A stretch of 64,000 bases of DNA from the NCBI RefSeq assembly GCF_001424645.1, contig NZ_LMQR01000001.1:177300-241299 (forward strand), written 5' to 3'. Below the pieces are notes generated by a model. The model was not told where the DNA came from. It ran no database searches and saw only the letters and a program-made list of their open reading frames with translations. The stretch's first letter is position 1. Each line of letters starts with the position of its first letter. Source of the stretch: Frigoribacterium sp. Leaf415 (GTDB taxonomy: Bacteria; Actinomycetota; Actinomycetes; Actinomycetales; Microbacteriaceae). Position numbers and translations under genes: made by a program. Positions 35,905-42,045 of this stretch are shown here, piece after piece.

Positions 35905-36510
35905 CTAGATCCAGCCGAGATCGCGCGCGTCCGAGGCGGCCCGTCCGCGGTCGGGCGCCCCGACTTTGCGGACGGCGGACGAGATCAGGTTGCGTACCGT
36001 GCCCTCGGCGAGGTGCAACTCGGCGGCGCACTGTCGGGTCGAGAGCGACCGGTCGACGAGGCGGAGGACGTCGCGTTCGCGAGGCGTGAGCGGGCATGCC
36101 TCGGCGCGGAGGACCGTGGCGGCCAACCTCGGGTCGACGTGGTCTTCTCCGGAAGCCACTCGCCGGACCACGGCGAGGAGTTCGTCGATGCTCGCCCGCT
36201 TCGAGACGACCGCGTCGATGCCCGACCGGACGATGTGACGGACGAGGACGGCGGGCAAGCGGCGACCCAGGACGACGACGGCGTCGTGCCCCTCGCGCAG
36301 TCGTCGGGCGGCGTCCACGACGTCGGGGTGGTCGTCGGCGTCGATGACCAGCACGCTCCGATGTCGCGGCCCCGTTTCTGAGCGAGGGGCCGGGGCGGGC
36401 GACAGTCCCGGCGCGGCCCGGATGCACGTCTCGATCGCCGATCGGGTGAGTACCTCGTCGGCGACCACGCGAACATCGATCGTCCGGTCGTCCGCCAAGG
36501 CATCCCCCAC
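35905..36510 (-). CDS. atypical response regulator with LuxR DNA-binding domain
   Basis: The 201-residue protein ends in a clear LuxR/NarL helix-turn-helix (CPLTPRERDVLRLVDRSLSTRQCAAELHLAEGTVRNLISSAVRKVGA). Its first 125 residues resemble a receiver domain: VRVVADEVLTRSAIETCI, then VLVIDADDHPDVV, and VVSKRASIDELLAVV with the conserved Lys. The acidic pocket at the start and the usual phospho-Asp context are poorly kept, so it may act without phosphorylation. It is divergent from the small-peptide gene at 36657 and is its likely pathway regulator. An AGGAGGCGCGGGTC word (35892-35905) ends at its stop. Confidence 0.82.
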   Translation of the reverse strand: MGDALADDRTIDVRVVADEVLTRSAIETCIRAAPGLSPAPAPRSETGPRHRSVLVIDADDHPDVVDAARRLREGHDAVVVLGRRLPAVLVRHIVRSGIDAVVSKRASIDELLAVVRRVASGEDHVDPRLAATVLRAEACPLTPRERDVLRLVDRSLSTRQCAAELHLAEGTVRNLISSAVRKVGAPDRGRAASDARDLGWI

Positions 36511-36521
36511 TCGTCATCGAA

Positions 36522-36587
36522 TTCGTGACCAGTATGTCTCATGGCGGAGGCATTACGCACGCGTGGTGACTTCGTGACGGCCGTGAC
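36522..36587. promoter_or_regulatory. CGTGAC direct repeats in the divergent peptide/LuxR promoter
   Basis: TTCGTGAC at 36521-36528, GGTGACTT at 36565-36572, TCGTGACG at 36572-36579 and CCGTGACTTT at 36581-36590 form repeated half sites. The last three are at 8-9 base intervals, close to one helical turn. This is a plausible binding array for the adjacent LuxR-type regulator. Confidence 0.45.
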
Positions 36588-36656
36588 TTTCGCGTCGAGC
36601 TGCCGATGCCGAGACTCGGAGGTGTCCAGTCGACTCGACGTGGGAGGAGGGAACGC

Positions 36657-36731
36657 ATGAAAAAGATCGAGAGCACGACGCTCAAGCCGGGTAGCGCAGC
36701 ACGCTGCAACGGCGGGTGCCTCTGCACCTGA
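36657..36731 (+). CDS. 24-residue Cys-rich precursor peptide (candidate RiPP)
   Basis: A 24-codon frame starts at ATG 36657 with an excellent GGAGGAGGGAACGC ribosome site. It begins MKKIESTTLKPG and ends ARCNGGCLCT, then TGA. The last eight residues hold three cysteines (17, 21, 23), so a leader of about 16 and a core of about 8 residues is likely. It is followed by a hairpin and then genes for an acyltransferase, an ABC exporter and an E1-like enzyme with an RRE-like segment. This is the usual order of a ribosomal-peptide cluster. There is no homology evidence I can cite for the peptide itself. Confidence 0.65.
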   Translation: MKKIESTTLKPGSAARCNGGCLCT

Positions 36732-36738
36732 CAGCCGA

Positions 36739-36765
36739 GGCGGGCCGCCCATCGGGCGGTCCGCC
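36739..36765 (+). terminator. attenuating hairpin after the precursor peptide
   Basis: GGCGGGCCGCCC (36739-36750) and GGGCGGTCCGCC (36754-36765) pair at 11 of 12 positions around an ATC loop, followed by TTCCCC. It begins eight bases after the peptide stop. Such hairpins commonly keep precursor message in excess over enzyme message. Confidence 0.7.
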
Positions 36766-36805
36766 TTCCCCGTCAGTCCGGTGACCGCATCTCCTGAAAG
36801 TCGAC

Positions 36806-37732
36806 ATGCCCCTTCCCGTCTTCACTCTCTTCGAGGTCGTCCGATATGAACGTCTCTGGTCGGCGCTCCGCGCCGCCGGGCCCGCTGCCGCGTGGCGACT
36901 CATGAACCACATCGCCCGGTTCGACCTGCCCGCCTACGACTCGATCGCCGACCCGTCCGACACGAGCGCCGGCATGGCGGCCAAGGCCCGTGCCGCCATG
37001 GGGGGCTTGCCGGGTCTCGCCTCCGTCGACATCGACGCTGCAGCGGGTCGATACGGTGACTACGGGCCTCGGATGCAATTCGAGTCGACGTTCGTCACGC
37101 TGTGGCTCGACGACCGAGCTCGGCTGGACGAGGTCGTCGAGGTTCGTGGCGGCGAGCACCTCGACGAGGCAATTGAGCACGGCCGTGGCGTCCTGGCCCT
37201 GCCCCTGCACTTCGGGGCGTCCTACGTCGTCCCGCCGATCATCGCGCACCGACAGCCCACGCGCTTCGTCTTCAACAGGATGAACTTCGACGAGCTCCGG
37301 GATCGGGCGTTTCCCTCTCTCGATGTCGACGCCTTCGCCATCGACGACGACGCGACCTTCCGAAAGGGGCTCCGAGCGCTTAAGGACGGGCTCGTCTTCG
37401 CGATGTTCCCCGAATTCGATCCCAGGGGCCGAGGCCGTCACCACACCGTCGTCCCGTTCCTGGGAGCTTCCGTCGTCGCGCCTCAGGGGCCGGCCCTCAT
37501 GAGTCGTGCCGCGGGCGCACCCATGCTGCCGATGCACCTCGACCGGACGGGGGAAGCTCACTTCGCCCTGACGATCCACCCGGCGATTCCCGCCCCGACA
37601 GATGACGTCGAGGTCCAAGGGTCGACGGTCGCGTTGTGGGGACTCATCGAGAGGCTCATCCTCGACGGCCGCGCCGGCGACTGGGAGATGTGGACCGACT
37701 TCGATCTGATGCGGACGGAGTCGGCGGCATGA
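36806..37732 (+). CDS. LpxL/HtrB-like acyltransferase
   Basis: The 308-residue protein resembles lipid A-type lysophospholipid acyltransferases. RGVLALPLHFGASYVVPPI corresponds to the H-x4-D/E region, FVFNRMN to the strand after it, and DGLVFAMFPEFDPRGRGRHH followed by VPFLGASVVAPQGPALMSRAAGAPMLPM to the second conserved block. The acidic partner of the catalytic His (His135) is replaced by Tyr140, so chemistry may differ. Lipid A is absent from actinobacteria, so in this position it could acylate the peptide or a cell-envelope target. It overlaps the ABC ATPase by four bases. Confidence 0.7.
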   Translation: MPLPVFTLFEVVRYERLWSALRAAGPAAAWRLMNHIARFDLPAYDSIADPSDTSAGMAAKARAAMGGLPGLASVDIDAAAGRYGDYGPRMQFESTFVTLWLDDRARLDEVVEVRGGEHLDEAIEHGRGVLALPLHFGASYVVPPIIAHRQPTRFVFNRMNFDELRDRAFPSLDVDAFAIDDDATFRKGLRALKDGLVFAMFPEFDPRGRGRHHTVVPFLGASVVAPQGPALMSRAAGAPMLPMHLDRTGEAHFALTIHPAIPAPTDDVEVQGSTVALWGLIERLILDGRAGDWEMWTDFDLMRTESAA

Positions 37733-38502
37733 CCACGGTTCCGCTCGTCAAGATCCTTGAAGTGTCACGGCTCTTCGAGAGTCGAGGCGGGAGACCGCCC
37801 GCCGTCGACCGTGTCTCGTTGGACCTTCACGAGGGCGAGATCGTCGCGATCGTCGGTCGCTCCGGCTCGGGCAAGTCGACTCTGGTGCAGATGGTCGGTG
37901 CTCTCGACACCCCCGATCACGGTCAGATCGTCTTCGACGGAATGACCCTTTCCTCCCTCTCCGAGGCGGAGCGCACCGTCCTGCGTAGAAATCGCATCGG
38001 ATTCGTCTTCCAGGACTCCCACCTCGTCCCGACCCTGTCGGTGCTCGAGAACGTCGGCCTCACGTCACTCGTCGCGGGAAGACCCCGCTCGGAATGGGCG
38101 GATCGAGCGCACGCGCTACTCGACGAACTCGGCCTCGACGGTCTCGAGCAGGCCCGTCCGGTCACGTTGTCGGGCGGAGAGGCCCAACGTGTGGCCCTGG
38201 CTCGAGCCCTCTTCTCCCGTCCGTCTCTCGTCCTCGCCGACGAGCCGACCGGCGCGCTCGACAGTGCGACCTCACGGGATGTCCTGAGGCTGCTCCGGGG
38301 CGTGGTCGTCGACGACCAGGCGTCAGCGGTCGTGGTGGTCACCCATGACCTCGAGACCGCCTGCATCGCCGACAGGATCGTCGTCCTGCGAGACGGCCGA
38401 GTCATCGCCGACGAACGCTTCACACCGGCGGCCACGATCGACAGCGTCGAGGGGAGGGCCCATGAAGAACGCGTTCGCGATTGGTTGGCGGAACATCGCT
38501 GA
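37729..38502 (+). CDS. MacB/LolD-type ABC transporter ATPase
   Basis: The 257-residue protein has Walker A GRSGSGKST, Q-loop FVFQDSHLVPTLSVLENV, signature LSGGEAQRVALARAL, Walker B LVLADEPTGALD and H-loop VVVTHDLETA. These are typical of MacB, LolD and bacteriocin-exporter ATPases. With the FtsX-type permease it should form an exporter or mechanotransmission complex, probably for the mature peptide or for self-protection. ATG at 37729 overlaps the acyltransferase stop. Confidence 0.9.
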   Translation: MTTVPLVKILEVSRLFESRGGRPPAVDRVSLDLHEGEIVAIVGRSGSGKSTLVQMVGALDTPDHGQIVFDGMTLSSLSEAERTVLRRNRIGFVFQDSHLVPTLSVLENVGLTSLVAGRPRSEWADRAHALLDELGLDGLEQARPVTLSGGEAQRVALARALFSRPSLVLADEPTGALDSATSRDVLRLLRGVVVDDQASAVVVVTHDLETACIADRIVVLRDGRVIADERFTPAATIDSVEGRAHEERVRDWLAEHR

Positions 38503-40927
38503 CGGACGGCGGCGGGCAGGACTCACCGCTCTCACGGCAGCCTTGGGGGTCGCCCTTCTCACGGCCTCACTCGTCACCGGGCTGACGGCGCGCCAGACGG
38601 TCGTCGACGGAATCGATTCGTTGCTCACGTTCGGGGACGTGGGCATCGTCCCCGAGGTGGATCGTGAGTTCGTCGACGAGGGCCTCGTGGACGCACTCGC
38701 CGCCGATCCCGGAGTCGTGTCGTCGCTCCCCACCCTGAGTCGAGAGACGGTCGCGGTCGGCGCGACGGGTGAGGCGGAGACCCTCCTCCTGACCGGGGCC
38801 CCGGCCGGGCCGGACTCGCTCGCCTCCCAGGTGGTCACCGACGGTCGAGCTCCTCGACCGGGCTCGGATGAGGTCCTGGTGCCGACCGATGTCGCAGACC
38901 GCATGGACGCCTCCCTGGGGAGTCGAATGTCGATGACGACTCCCGCGGGCGTCCGCTCGTTCGACGTGGTGGGGCTCGTCGACCCCCGCTCGTTGGGTGT
39001 CTTCGCCCGGGACAACCTCTTCACCGACCTCGAGGTCGTCCAGAGGGCGTTCGGGCTCGAGGGTGACCTCACCCGTCTCGACCTCGAACTCGATCCTGCA
39101 GTCGCGTCCACCTGGGCAGCAGAACACCGAGCGGCGCTCCCGTCCGGAGCCGTCTTCCAGGACACGTCGGCCGTGGCCGACGGCCTCGGGCCCATCGAAA
39201 CGGCCGTGACGGCGGTCATGGCAGGGCTCGCTCTGGTCGCGCTCGCCGTGTCGGCACTGCTCGGTTCACTGGCGAGCACGGCTGCCGTCCGAGCACGGCG
39301 CCGCACCTACGGTGTGCTGCGCGCCACGGGCGCGTCCACGCGGTGGTTGGTCTCGTCGGTCGGCGCCGAGATCGCCATCGTCGCAGCGGCCGGAACGGTC
39401 GTGGGCGTCGCGGTCGGCGTCGCAGGCGCTGCGGTGGTGATGAGTCGGACGGATGGGGCGACTCCGTCTCTCTCGACTCTCACCCTCTCGGTCGGTCTCG
39501 GTGTCCTGGCGGGAGCGACCTCCGCCGCGCTCGGAGCCCGACGAGCCGTCGCCGACGTCCGTCGAATTCCGCCGGCGTTCGTCGTGAGGGGCGTCGAACC
39601 CGCAGACGGTTCGCCCGGATCGTGCTCACAGCGACGAACCGTCGCGGTCGCCGTGGTCGCATCGGTCTCGGCGCTGGTGATCTGGGCCCTCGACGCAGGC
39701 GCCGTCCTCGACGCTCTGGGCCTGGTCGCTCTGGCGGCCTGTGCGGTGGCCCTCTCCCGCCTCGCGATCGCGCCCCTGGCGGCGTTCGCGGCCAGGCTCC
39801 AGTGGGCAGCCGACCTGGCGCGTCGCCGACCGACACGCGGCAGGTCGACGGTGACCGGGGCCCTCACCCTGGTGGTCTTCGGTGCGGTGTCGCTCGCCAC
39901 CTGCGTCGGTGCCGTCGCCTCCGCGACAGGGGAACAGATCGATCGGCAGTTCGGGGCCGACGTGCAAGTCACGTCGGTCGTGCCCTTGTCGGACGACGCC
40001 GAGCCGACGATCGTCGTGGACGGCGTTCGGGACGTCGCGCGGTCGACGTCCGGTGAAGCCACCGTCCTGTCGGCGTCCGCCGAACTCGACGTGCCGTTCC
40101 AGGCGATCGACCCCGAGACCTGGTTCGACGTGTCGGGGCTCGCGTGGTCCGACGGTAGCGGATCGAGAGGTGTCGAGTTGCTGAGGGCCGGTGGGGGCAT
40201 CGCTCTGCCGAGGGGGGTCGCCGAGTCCCTGACGGTGGCCCCGGGCGATGAGGTCGTCGTGTCGGCCGGGGGAACCCAGGTGCCCCTCGAAGTCGTTGGG
40301 CTCTTCACCTCGGTGGCCACGGGGCAACAGGTCGTCATCGACCGCAGGACGGCGGGGGAACTCGGTGTCACTGGGGTCTCTCGGTGGGACGTGTCGGCAG
40401 ACGGAGGGGTCGATGTCGCCGACTTGTCAGACCGCATCGCCGCGCAGGTGGTCGGTGTCCCCGGTGTCGACGTCATCACCGCCGAGGCGACGAGGGATCG
40501 GGCAGCCTCCGAGACGGCAGCCCTCACGGCAGGACTCTTCGCTGCGGTGACGGTGACTTTGGCCCTCGGGGCTCTGGGGGCCAGCAGCACGCTGAGCCTC
40601 GACGTCGAATCGCGGCGTGATGAACTCGCCGTGCTCCGCACCGTGGGGTGCCGACGTCGCGGCGTCGGTGCCCTCGTCGCCTGGGACGCCATCGTGATCG
40701 CCGTGGCGTCGCTGAGTGCAGGACTGCTCCTCGGCTCGTTCGGGGGAGCACTCGGGACGCAGATCGTCTCGAGGCTCCTCGGCGTGGGGGTCGACCCGGT
40801 GGTCGATCCCGTGACGATCGCGGGAATCGTCGGCGTGACGGCGATCGCTCTCGCCTTCGCCGCCGTGGGGCCGGTCCTGCGGGCCTCCCGCACGGAGCCC
40901 CTGACGATTCTGAGGGGCACGTCATGA
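38462..40927 (+). CDS. FtsX-type ABC transporter permease
   Basis: The 821-residue protein has the long-permease layout. It has one N-terminal helix (about residues 15-40), a large extracytoplasmic domain, three FtsX helices (about 250-370), a second group of helices from about 420, another extracytoplasmic domain, and three final helices (about 690-815). It pairs with the MacB/LolD-type ATPase. A GGGGAGG ribosome site precedes the ATG, and the 41-base overlap with the ATPase gene indicates coupling. It probably exports or extracts the cluster's product from the membrane. Confidence 0.88.
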   Translation: MKNAFAIGWRNIADGRRRAGLTALTAALGVALLTASLVTGLTARQTVVDGIDSLLTFGDVGIVPEVDREFVDEGLVDALAADPGVVSSLPTLSRETVAVGATGEAETLLLTGAPAGPDSLASQVVTDGRAPRPGSDEVLVPTDVADRMDASLGSRMSMTTPAGVRSFDVVGLVDPRSLGVFARDNLFTDLEVVQRAFGLEGDLTRLDLELDPAVASTWAAEHRAALPSGAVFQDTSAVADGLGPIETAVTAVMAGLALVALAVSALLGSLASTAAVRARRRTYGVLRATGASTRWLVSSVGAEIAIVAAAGTVVGVAVGVAGAAVVMSRTDGATPSLSTLTLSVGLGVLAGATSAALGARRAVADVRRIPPAFVVRGVEPADGSPGSCSQRRTVAVAVVASVSALVIWALDAGAVLDALGLVALAACAVALSRLAIAPLAAFAARLQWAADLARRRPTRGRSTVTGALTLVVFGAVSLATCVGAVASATGEQIDRQFGADVQVTSVVPLSDDAEPTIVVDGVRDVARSTSGEATVLSASAELDVPFQAIDPETWFDVSGLAWSDGSGSRGVELLRAGGGIALPRGVAESLTVAPGDEVVVSAGGTQVPLEVVGLFTSVATGQQVVIDRRTAGELGVTGVSRWDVSADGGVDVADLSDRIAAQVVGVPGVDVITAEATRDRAASETAALTAGLFAAVTVTLALGALGASSTLSLDVESRRDELAVLRTVGCRRRGVGALVAWDAIVIAVASLSAGLLLGSFGGALGTQIVSRLLGVGVDPVVDPVTIAGIVGVTAIALAFAAVGPVLRASRTEPLTILRGTS

Positions 40928-42045
40928 GCACTGACGCGAGAACGGGCTCAGCCGCCCGCCCCCGTCTGCGAGACAGCATCATCGTCATCCAGCTCGCAGA
41001 CGGTCGCCTGCAATTCAGGGCAACGTACGAGCGGGTCGTGTCGACCTTCTCCGTCGAGCCCTGGGTGGCGGACCTCGTCCCGCTGCTCGACGGGACTCGC
41101 ACGCCAGCGCAGCTCGCCCAGACGCTTTCCTTGCGTGATCGCGGAGCGCTCGAGGACGTGCTGGAGGTCCTCGAATCCGAACGCTTCCTGGCGTCGGAGG
41201 CATCTTCTACTGACCGTGCCACGAGGCATTCGCGTCAGCTGCAGCTGTTCGACGAGATGATCTCGGCCGATGAACTGTCCGCAGTCGCTCGGGGACACGA
41301 CGCCTCGACGGTCCAGAGCCGGCTCACCGGTGCATGCGTGGTCGTGGTCGGCGTCGGTGGTGCTGGTTCGTGGGTCGTCCAATCGCTGGCCTCGGCGGGG
41401 GTGGGGAAGCTCGTGCTCATCGATCCCGACGTCGTCGAACTCTCCAACCTGAACCGGCAGGTGCTCTTCGATTCCGGTGACGTCGGACGAGTCAAGGTCG
41501 ACGCAGCCGCAGAGCGAGTCGCCGAGATCGACGCTGACATCACCGTCGACGTCTGGTGCACTCGGGTGGACACCTCGGAACAGCTCGCGACCCTGCTCTC
41601 GGGCGCCGATCTCGTCGTGAGTTGCGCAGACCAGCCCTCGGTGCCCGTCGTGGCCGACGTCGTGGCGACTGCGAGCACCGCGGTCGGTGTCCCGCACATC
41701 GTCGGAGGCGCGTACGGCGCCCTGCTCGGGGTGCCGGGTGTCACCGTCCTGCCCGGCCGAACGACGTGCTGGTCGTGCATCCGTGCCGCGACAGCCGACG
41801 ATCACGGACGTGCCGCGCGAACACTGAAGGGTTCGTCGCCCGGCGGTTCAGCCGCCCCGTTGGCCGGTGTGGTGGGGAACATGACGGCATGGGAGGCGCT
41901 CCGGATACTGCTCGGAGCACCACCGGCACTGGCCGGAGGTGTCCGCGAGGTCGATCTCGCCAGTTTCGACAGTGTCTGGCGTCGGATTCCACCACGTCTC
42001 GAATGCGGATGCGTTCCATCGTCCGAGACGACCGGTTCGACCTGA
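40924..42045 (+). CDS. E1/ThiF-like adenylating enzyme with N-terminal RRE-like segment
   Basis: The 373-residue protein has two parts. Residues 20-92 (including FSVEPWVADLVPLLDGTRTP and EDVLEVLESERFL) resemble the PqqD-like RiPP recognition element that binds leader peptides. Residues 105-373 are an E1/MoeB/ThiF/MccB fold: VGVGGAGSW (142-150) for ATP, LIDPDVVELSNLNRQ (165-179) with the conserved Asp and Arg, and paired zinc cysteines CWSC (282-285) and CGC (361-363). Such enzymes activate a carboxylate as an acyl-adenylate. No YcaO partner is present. The start overlaps the permease stop by four bases. Confidence 0.85.
   Translation: MSTDARTGSAARPRLRDSIIVIQLADGRLQFRATYERVVSTFSVEPWVADLVPLLDGTRTPAQLAQTLSLRDRGALEDVLEVLESERFLASEASSTDRATRHSRQLQLFDEMISADELSAVARGHDASTVQSRLTGACVVVVGVGGAGSWVVQSLASAGVGKLVLIDPDVVELSNLNRQVLFDSGDVGRVKVDAAAERVAEIDADITVDVWCTRVDTSEQLATLLSGADLVVSCADQPSVPVVADVVATASTAVGVPHIVGGAYGALLGVPGVTVLPGRTTCWSCIRAATADDHGRAARTLKGSSPGGSAAPLAGVVGNMTAWEALRILLGAPPALAGGVREVDLASFDSVWRRIPPRLECGCVPSSETTGST

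Follow-up and report, generated by a model that had tools for sequence, protein, structure and literature searches.

On sequence grounds, five genes of the window (the whole 64,000-nucleotide stretch of Frigoribacterium sp. Leaf415 DNA analysed here) almost certainly form a RiPP cluster built around a stand-alone RRE-E1 enzyme. The whole explanation that we favor, to which we assign a rough probability of 0.55, is that the E1 enzyme closes a C-terminal Cys thiolactone on a short peptide, that the peptide is fatty acylated, and that a Lol/MacB-like transporter exports it; we infer the positions of both the ring and the lipid. The features that mark ThiF/E1-dependent RiPPs are present, namely a predicted RRE fused to an E1 domain, the ATP/Mg residues and a conserved short precursor gene. 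The window genome (G000) has a size of 3.42 Mb, and the closest named relative found at the locus was Frigoribacterium sp. Leaf8, with an E1 protein 97% identical to that of the window.

The precursor peptide and its cassette

The cluster begins with a 24-codon precursor peptide gene on the + strand, MKKIESTTLKPGSAARCNGGCLCT (36657-36731 including the stop), whose ATG at 36657 is preceded by the ribosome site GGGAGGAGGG, with the ribosome-binding site GAGGAGGG at 36644-36651 (+ strand). Rereading the sequence bore out the preliminary description of this frame and its strong ribosome site. A strong hairpin without a U tract lies directly 3' of the gene (36737-36767, + strand). It is followed on the + strand by genes for an LpxL/PatA-type acyltransferase (36806-37732; PF03279, 1.7e-14), an ABC transporter ATPase of the LolD/MacB type (37729-38502; PF00005, 1.6e-35), an FtsX-type permease (38462-40927; PF02687, 1.5e-19) and the 373-residue RRE-E1 (ThiF-like) peptide-activating enzyme (40924-42045; PF00899, 3e-45), and the coordinates agree with the overlaps of 4, 41 and 4 bases first reported between these four genes. 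On the - strand lies a LuxR-type regulator gene (35905-36510; Pfam GerE 3.6e-9, with a receiver match absent in Pfam). The 24-mer matched no Pfam family, and no Rfam family was found at gathering thresholds between 35700 and 42200. A 41-residue reading from the ATG at 36606 was rejected because it is at 36657 that the start is conserved and the ribosome site strong. A lipobox lipoprotein was likewise rejected, since inspection by eye showed neither a hydrophobic signal stretch nor a conserved lipobox ahead of the first Cys.

Near-identical clusters were found in 3 of 16 genomes of the window's genus, and three further independent loci carry the four genes in unchanged order. These are Leifsonia sp. 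TF02-11 (L002; 46, 50, 36 and 49% identity to the window genes, in gene order), a second genome of the genus Leifsonia (L071; of 28 genomes of that genus, 2 gave an E1 match) and genome G1795 from another family of the same order (L116; the one hit among 375 genomes searched with the Arthrobacter ramosus E1). At each of these loci 24-25-residue frames lie upstream of the acyltransferase gene, one in L002, (V)EKIKDIDLKAGATLACGSQCMCS, one in L071, (V)EKVKDIDLQAGATLACGSQCMCS, and two in tandem in L116, MKLLVSRKLPAGSAARCNNRCMCT and MRVVHESELPVGAAARCTQDRCMCT. Ribosome sites similar to that of the window precede the precursor frames of L001, L002, L071 and both of L116. All five distinct precursors share the end C-x(3,4)-C-[LM]-C-[ST]-stop, so that the terminal residue is always Ser or Thr; the final four residues keep a constant distance from the stop, and the spacing of the first Cys varies by one, being longer in one precursor. 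L9 and G12 are invariant in all five, the N-terminal half is otherwise loosely kept, and K-I is absent from both L116 copies. The Cys-rich short frame on which the preliminary description was built is thus kept at all four independent chromosomal sites where the DNA was readable.

All stop-anchored 24-mers at each locus were scored ungapped against the window peptide, and in all three independent loci the best-scoring 24-mer was the frame upstream of the acyltransferase gene (first of 256, of 201 and of 236; z 6.1, 5.8 and 7.4). The lowest of these top-ranked scores was 45, versus a null maximum of 42 and a next null score of 30 among 20,955 24-mers from cluster-free loci, and the null 24-mer that scored 42 came from a locus chosen for fitting the Cys pattern. 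The second L116 copy aligns with the window peptide only if a gap of one residue is allowed, and its ungapped score of 15, reached by 31 of the 20,955 null 24-mers, is not significant; we accepted it as a precursor because of its tandem place, its start, its ribosome site and its spacing, longer by one residue. The bare Cys pattern gave 5 matches in four genomes (4 of them the precursors) versus 4 for the reversed control, and it turns up about once per genome by chance. Because the bare pattern is not rare in a genome, the case for the precursor rests on place, frame and leader. The window and L001 frames show three synonymous and no other codon differences, and the L002 and L071 frames three synonymous and two other differences, those two outside the Cys core. 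By its conservation, the precursor is real.

In four of five cluster-free Frigoribacterium genomes araA is followed within ~0.1-0.6 kb by a luciferase-like gene with no LuxR match between them; in the fifth, the luciferase-like gene was not seen within 1.5 kb after araA. In the window the luciferase-like gene adjoins the E1 gene downstream, and most simply the LuxR gene, the precursor and the four genes came in together between araA and the luciferase-like gene. The divergent LuxR-type gene noted earlier is indeed there, with 85% identity in other Frigoribacterium copies, but it falls outside the conserved set: it lies inside the insertion, yet it is absent from the Leifsonia and G1795 clusters searched (no tblastn match at 1e-3 in L002, L071 or L116). 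At the other sites the cassette adjoins different household genes, namely those for a D-Ala-D-Ala ligase and a DUF3515 protein in L071, and those for prephenate dehydratase and a diacylglycerol kinase-like protein in L116; in L002 adenosine deaminase lies downstream and two frames without a Pfam family lie upstream. The shared core is the precursor or precursors, the acyltransferase, the ABC ATPase, the FtsX permease and the E1. No shared protease or regulator was found across the cassette sites, and no protease was found by Pfam among the window cluster genes or in the eight scanned flanking frames of L002, L071 and L116.

Searches at E <= 1e-35 recovered the E1 from 2 of 398 and, in a second draw, 1 of 378 genomes of the family, and from 1 of 396 genomes of the order, all of them already known carriers; these large genome searches scored the best 4 or 5 candidates per genome, so that misses are possible. 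The cassette is discrete and, by these searches, rare. A class-wide E1 search, which like that of the 375 genomes with the Arthrobacter ramosus E1 also scored the best 4 or 5 candidates per genome, gave 21 non-own places, and none of the 17 examined, some of which sit on short contigs, had an acyltransferase match at E <= 1e-4. The best E1 match in plasmids was that of Nonomuraea gerenzanensis (41%), with no acyltransferase match at its locus (L066), and viral contigs gave three partial E1 matches; the acyltransferase was found neither in viral contigs nor in plasmids. Judging by its record NZ_LT559118.1 in the plasmid collection (11.85 Mb, with 10 listed features), the Nonomuraea gerenzanensis 'plasmid I' has the appearance of a complete chromosome.

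The RRE-E1 enzyme and a proposed ring closure

The predicted model of the E1 protein consists of an N-terminal RRE-type beta3-alpha3 domain and then the E1 fold. MccB matches the protein from residue 11 to 365 and PaaA from residue 16 on, nearly the whole length; the predicted fold and these matches, which include the N-terminal domain, both support the earlier proposal of an RRE in this part of the enzyme. We aligned the window E1 (P0001) with 63 sequences chosen by hand from the 120 best of 230 matches, leaving out short and weaker ones as well as rows L103 and L104 (stop within slice). In these 64 sequences GxGGxG, R178, K191 and D236 are invariant. The spacing of the last three is that of R167, K180 and D225 of EnfB, which are named as ATP and Mg residues in the sections of PMC12250964 drawn on here. 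The E1 has four zinc-type Cys and no Cys at the ThiF catalytic place.

A second, distinct peptide family was observed at 11 of 18 loci examined, where distant RRE-E1 genes (28-36% identity to the window E1) lie near a conserved short frame of 28-43 residues. Its motif is R-x-L-[DE]-[KR]-x-E-T-T, without Cys, and it differs from the window precursor family (L099-L104, L107, L108, L110-L112; for example L101 8557-8682), while the window leader stretch KKIESTT resembles KIETT of this family. Membrane-type proteins with, by eye, both HE-x-x-H motifs and an RRE-like N-terminal part are encoded near the E1 genes at L101 9465-10676 and L112 5991-7652, the latter without a Pfam family at 1e-4; these are possibly the leader protease of the second family.

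According to the sections of PMC12250964 and PMC12150305 drawn on here, MccB, PaaA, GrcB, EnfB and IndF all activate a peptide carboxylate by adenylation, and what sets them apart is the nucleophile. EnfB activates the C-terminus and GrcB makes a Glu-Cys thiolactone (PMC12250964, in part), and IndF couples the C-terminal Ile with a Trp at the third position before it (PMC12150305, in part). By analogy with these enzymes, the E1 of the window quite likely activates the C-terminal carboxylate of the precursor. Such activation fits MccB, EnfB and IndF, and it fits the lack of Asp and Glu after residue 12 in four of the five precursors, the only such acid being Asp20 in the second copy of L116, which is not part of the invariant end. 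In the mechanism that we propose, the RRE of the E1 would bind the N-terminal half of the precursor, the E1 domain would adenylate the C-terminal Ser/Thr carboxylate with ATP, and a conserved Cys thiol would attack the acyl adenylate directly, because there is no Cys at the ThiF catalytic place. The attacking thiol would most likely be the Cys three before the end, which would yield a four-residue C-terminal thiolactone. A ring over C-[LM]-C-[ST] is our first choice because a Cys lies exactly three before the C-terminal Ser/Thr and almost no acids follow residue 12, and an eight-residue ring from the first Cys is disfavored because its spacing is one longer in one of five precursors. Three Cys and the terminal hydroxyl are competing nucleophiles, and for a Cys thiolactone as such we see about an even chance. 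The whole 24-mer may be the product.

The E1-activated peptide could instead be closed or capped in another way, as a Ser/Thr ester or beta-lactone, an enterofaecin-like imide or an amide, the Cys residues then being a disulfide or a metal site. Although the invariable terminal Ser/Thr would suit some such closure, and ThiF-like enzymes make diverse links (PMC12250964 and PMC12150305, in part), a hydroxyl is a poorer nucleophile than three invariant thiols, and the sections of these two papers on ThiF-like RiPP enzymes drawn on here name no beta-lactone; we consider these closures unlikely while giving them real weight. If the enzyme were of the microcin C type, then an Asn-ended precursor would be expected as in MccA, and instead the last residue is Ser or Thr in each of the five distinct precursors; the nucleotide-type modification that the preliminary description had entertained is thus unlikely.

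Acyltransferase, putative exporter and hairpin

By sequence the acyltransferase belongs to the PatA/LpxL fold family (PF03279), and all 21 acyltransferases compared have H135, E203, D205 and R207. The catalytic His and the block-3 Glu of LpxL/PatA are kept in all 21, matched by alignment and not by structure, whereas the acidic residue of HX4D is replaced by an invariant Tyr (Tyr140, 21 of 21). According to the part of PMC4792965 drawn on here, H126 and E200 of PatA form a charge relay, and D131 of its HX4D motif is placed differently. Because H135 and E203 are kept and the PatA relay uses the corresponding H126 and E200, the acyltransferase is probably active. It differs from PatA and LpxL also in sitting in a peptide cluster, and its scores lie far below the curated cut-offs of named families. 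We propose that this enzyme would transfer a fatty acyl group to one of the conserved side chains, either the terminal Ser/Thr hydroxyl or another Cys, and we think it rather probable that the peptide is its substrate.

Acyltransferase searches of 5.8 billion proteins (ACYLTRANSFERASE) gave at least 25 clusters at E <= 1e-10 and at least 26 at E <= 1e-15, the lowest score among the relatives listed at the latter threshold being 330 bits. Shared words set a limit on the candidates in these searches, which missed the G1795 protein even though it was in the query alignment. Since that protein is not among the listed matches, the family must be larger than listed, and given this gap we did not infer absence of the acyltransferase for E1 relatives such as that of Arthrobacter ramosus. 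Five listed relatives share their longest-contig size with an E1 relative (144,059; 51,829; 7,886; 5,648; 5,303). The Candidatus Lumbricidophila tags B5766_03550 and B5766_03565 leave room for two genes between them if tags step by five, as they do here. In the E1 tree, 11 of the 64 rows were labelled as acyltransferase-bearing (four seen in DNA, five by shared longest-contig size, and P0005 and P0045 by near identity to DNA-seen rows), scattered in a clade of 38 rows. Because the labelled rows scatter and the others are unlabelled, the tree does not allow a firm statement about whether the acyltransferase was gained or lost.

The LpxL and PatA family acts on lipids and glycolipids, and the acyltransferase might accordingly alter a membrane lipid, for example in immunity, while the E1 and the exporter handle an unlipidated peptide. 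At four of four sites no other enzyme gene stands closer behind the precursor than that of the acyltransferase, which argues against this division of labor, as do the small number of close relatives listed and the five relatives that share contig sizes with an E1 relative, and we regard it as possible but doubtful. In the reading that we favor, the Lol/MacB-like pair would export the lipidated product. The best NCBIfam model for the ABC ATPase is LolD (208 bits, under the cut-off of 308), and the 821-residue FtsX permease has two FtsX stretches and about ten hydrophobic segments.

The hairpin that had been described behind the short frame is present, with a folding energy of -34.7 kcal/mol (z -5.7; 0 of 200 shuffles as good). 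Hairpins occupy the same place in L002 (z -3.1), in L071 (z -4.3) and behind the second precursor of L116 (z -4.4; 1 of 200 shuffles as good), so that a stable hairpin follows the last precursor at four of four sites, each of different sequence and without a U tract. A terminator scan gave no + strand site and one - strand site, inside the short frame. The hairpin may hold precursor mRNA above enzyme mRNA. Cys codons that end a short frame directly before a strong hairpin also recall a Cys attenuator, in which the frame would be a regulatory leader, ribosome stalling at the Cys codons would control read-through past the hairpin, and the operon would make or move something other than the short peptide. 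We consider this improbable: the hairpin has no U tract; L9, G12 and the terminal Ser/Thr, all outside the Cys run, are kept over deep divergence; L116 has two different tandem copies, the first of which lacks a significant hairpin behind it (z -0.7); and an RRE-E1 enzyme calls for a peptide substrate. More improbable still is that the E1 is part of an anti-phage or ubiquitin-like conjugation system with the short peptide as a mini modifier, for although PADLOC E1-E2 models match the E1 domain (best 6.8e-21), the ABC ATPase matches the mads_3 model (6.2e-33) and MoeB and ThiF are the best single-sequence PDB matches of the E1, the PADLOC matches are confined to the common E1 and ABC domains, Pfam and PADLOC scans of the five cluster genes showed no E2, JAB or ubiquitin-like protein, the matches that take in the N-terminal domain are those of MccB and PaaA, and the Cys at the ThiF catalytic place is missing.

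Relation to known ThiF-dependent RiPPs

YcaO-free RRE-E1 enzymes are an established group that covers microcin C, pantocin A, the GRC thiolactone, enterofaecin and IndF (PMC12250964 and PMC12150305, in part). The ind cluster of Streptococcus pneumoniae shares with the window a stand-alone RRE-ThiF enzyme, a short precursor and a transporter; IndF, moreover, activates the C-terminal carboxylate and cyclizes it onto the residue at the third position before the end, for a ring of four residues, as we propose here. It differs in its Trp nucleophile, its core end NWYFI and an M16 protease in the cluster, and no acyltransferase is named in the sections of PMC12150305 drawn on here. According to the corresponding sections of PMC12250964, the GRC RaS-RiPPs likewise combine an RRE-ThiF enzyme (GrcB) with a Cys thiolactone, which would be the shared linkage, but they use the carboxylate of precursor Glu35, two radical SAM enzymes and a 39-residue precursor. 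In the same sections, enterofaecin resembles the window in its 21-residue precursor, in C-terminal activation (by EnfB), here putative, and in its ABC transporter genes; it differs in its WIVI-type core and the reported imide, and no acyltransferase is named there. Microcin C differs by the Asn-ended MccA and nucleotide addition by MccB, and pantocin A (PaaA) by PaaP with two core Glu and an oxygenase.

None of these types was found in the window cluster. There is no Glu-Glu core and no oxygenase among the five cluster genes, which argues against the pantocin A type; the luciferase-like gene adjoining the cluster lies outside the insertion. No radical SAM enzyme among the cluster genes and no Glu-Cys core were found for the GRC type, and the Trp-containing C-terminal cores of the IndF and EnfB types (NWYFI, WIVI) are absent from the precursors. 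A TOMM cluster would have a YcaO protein; in line with the preliminary description, Pfam found neither YcaO nor radical SAM among the five genes.

The preliminary description knew of no named RiPP class with this combination. That stands for the acyltransferase pairing, which is unreported in the literature searched, but not for the YcaO-free RRE-E1 enzyme, which belongs to the established group above. In open-licence literature, no title or abstract start among the matches listed combined an RRE-E1 with an LpxL-type acyltransferase or contained this precursor family, and no match listed reports an LpxL/PatA-type enzyme acting on a RiPP. The ThiF-dependent kind of RiPP is thus known, while the acyltransferase pairing and the precursor family appear new. 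Tentatively, and at odds somewhat below even, we suggest a class of acylated C-terminal thiolactone RiPPs, in which an RRE-E1 closes the C-[LM]-C-[ST] ring, an LpxL/PatA-type enzyme lipidates the peptide and a Lol-like exporter releases it.

The precursor and each enzyme are single genes, so that the chemistry is directly testable, and a five-gene cassette with a 24-residue substrate should be easy to rebuild in vitro. If our reading is true, an acylating branch would be added to the ThiF-dependent RiPPs, and an LpxL/PatA-type enzyme would gain a peptide substrate. The proposed C-terminal thiolactone resembles the ring of Agr-type signals and would be made without the AgrB protease; an E1-made thiolactone would therefore be another route to this kind of ring.
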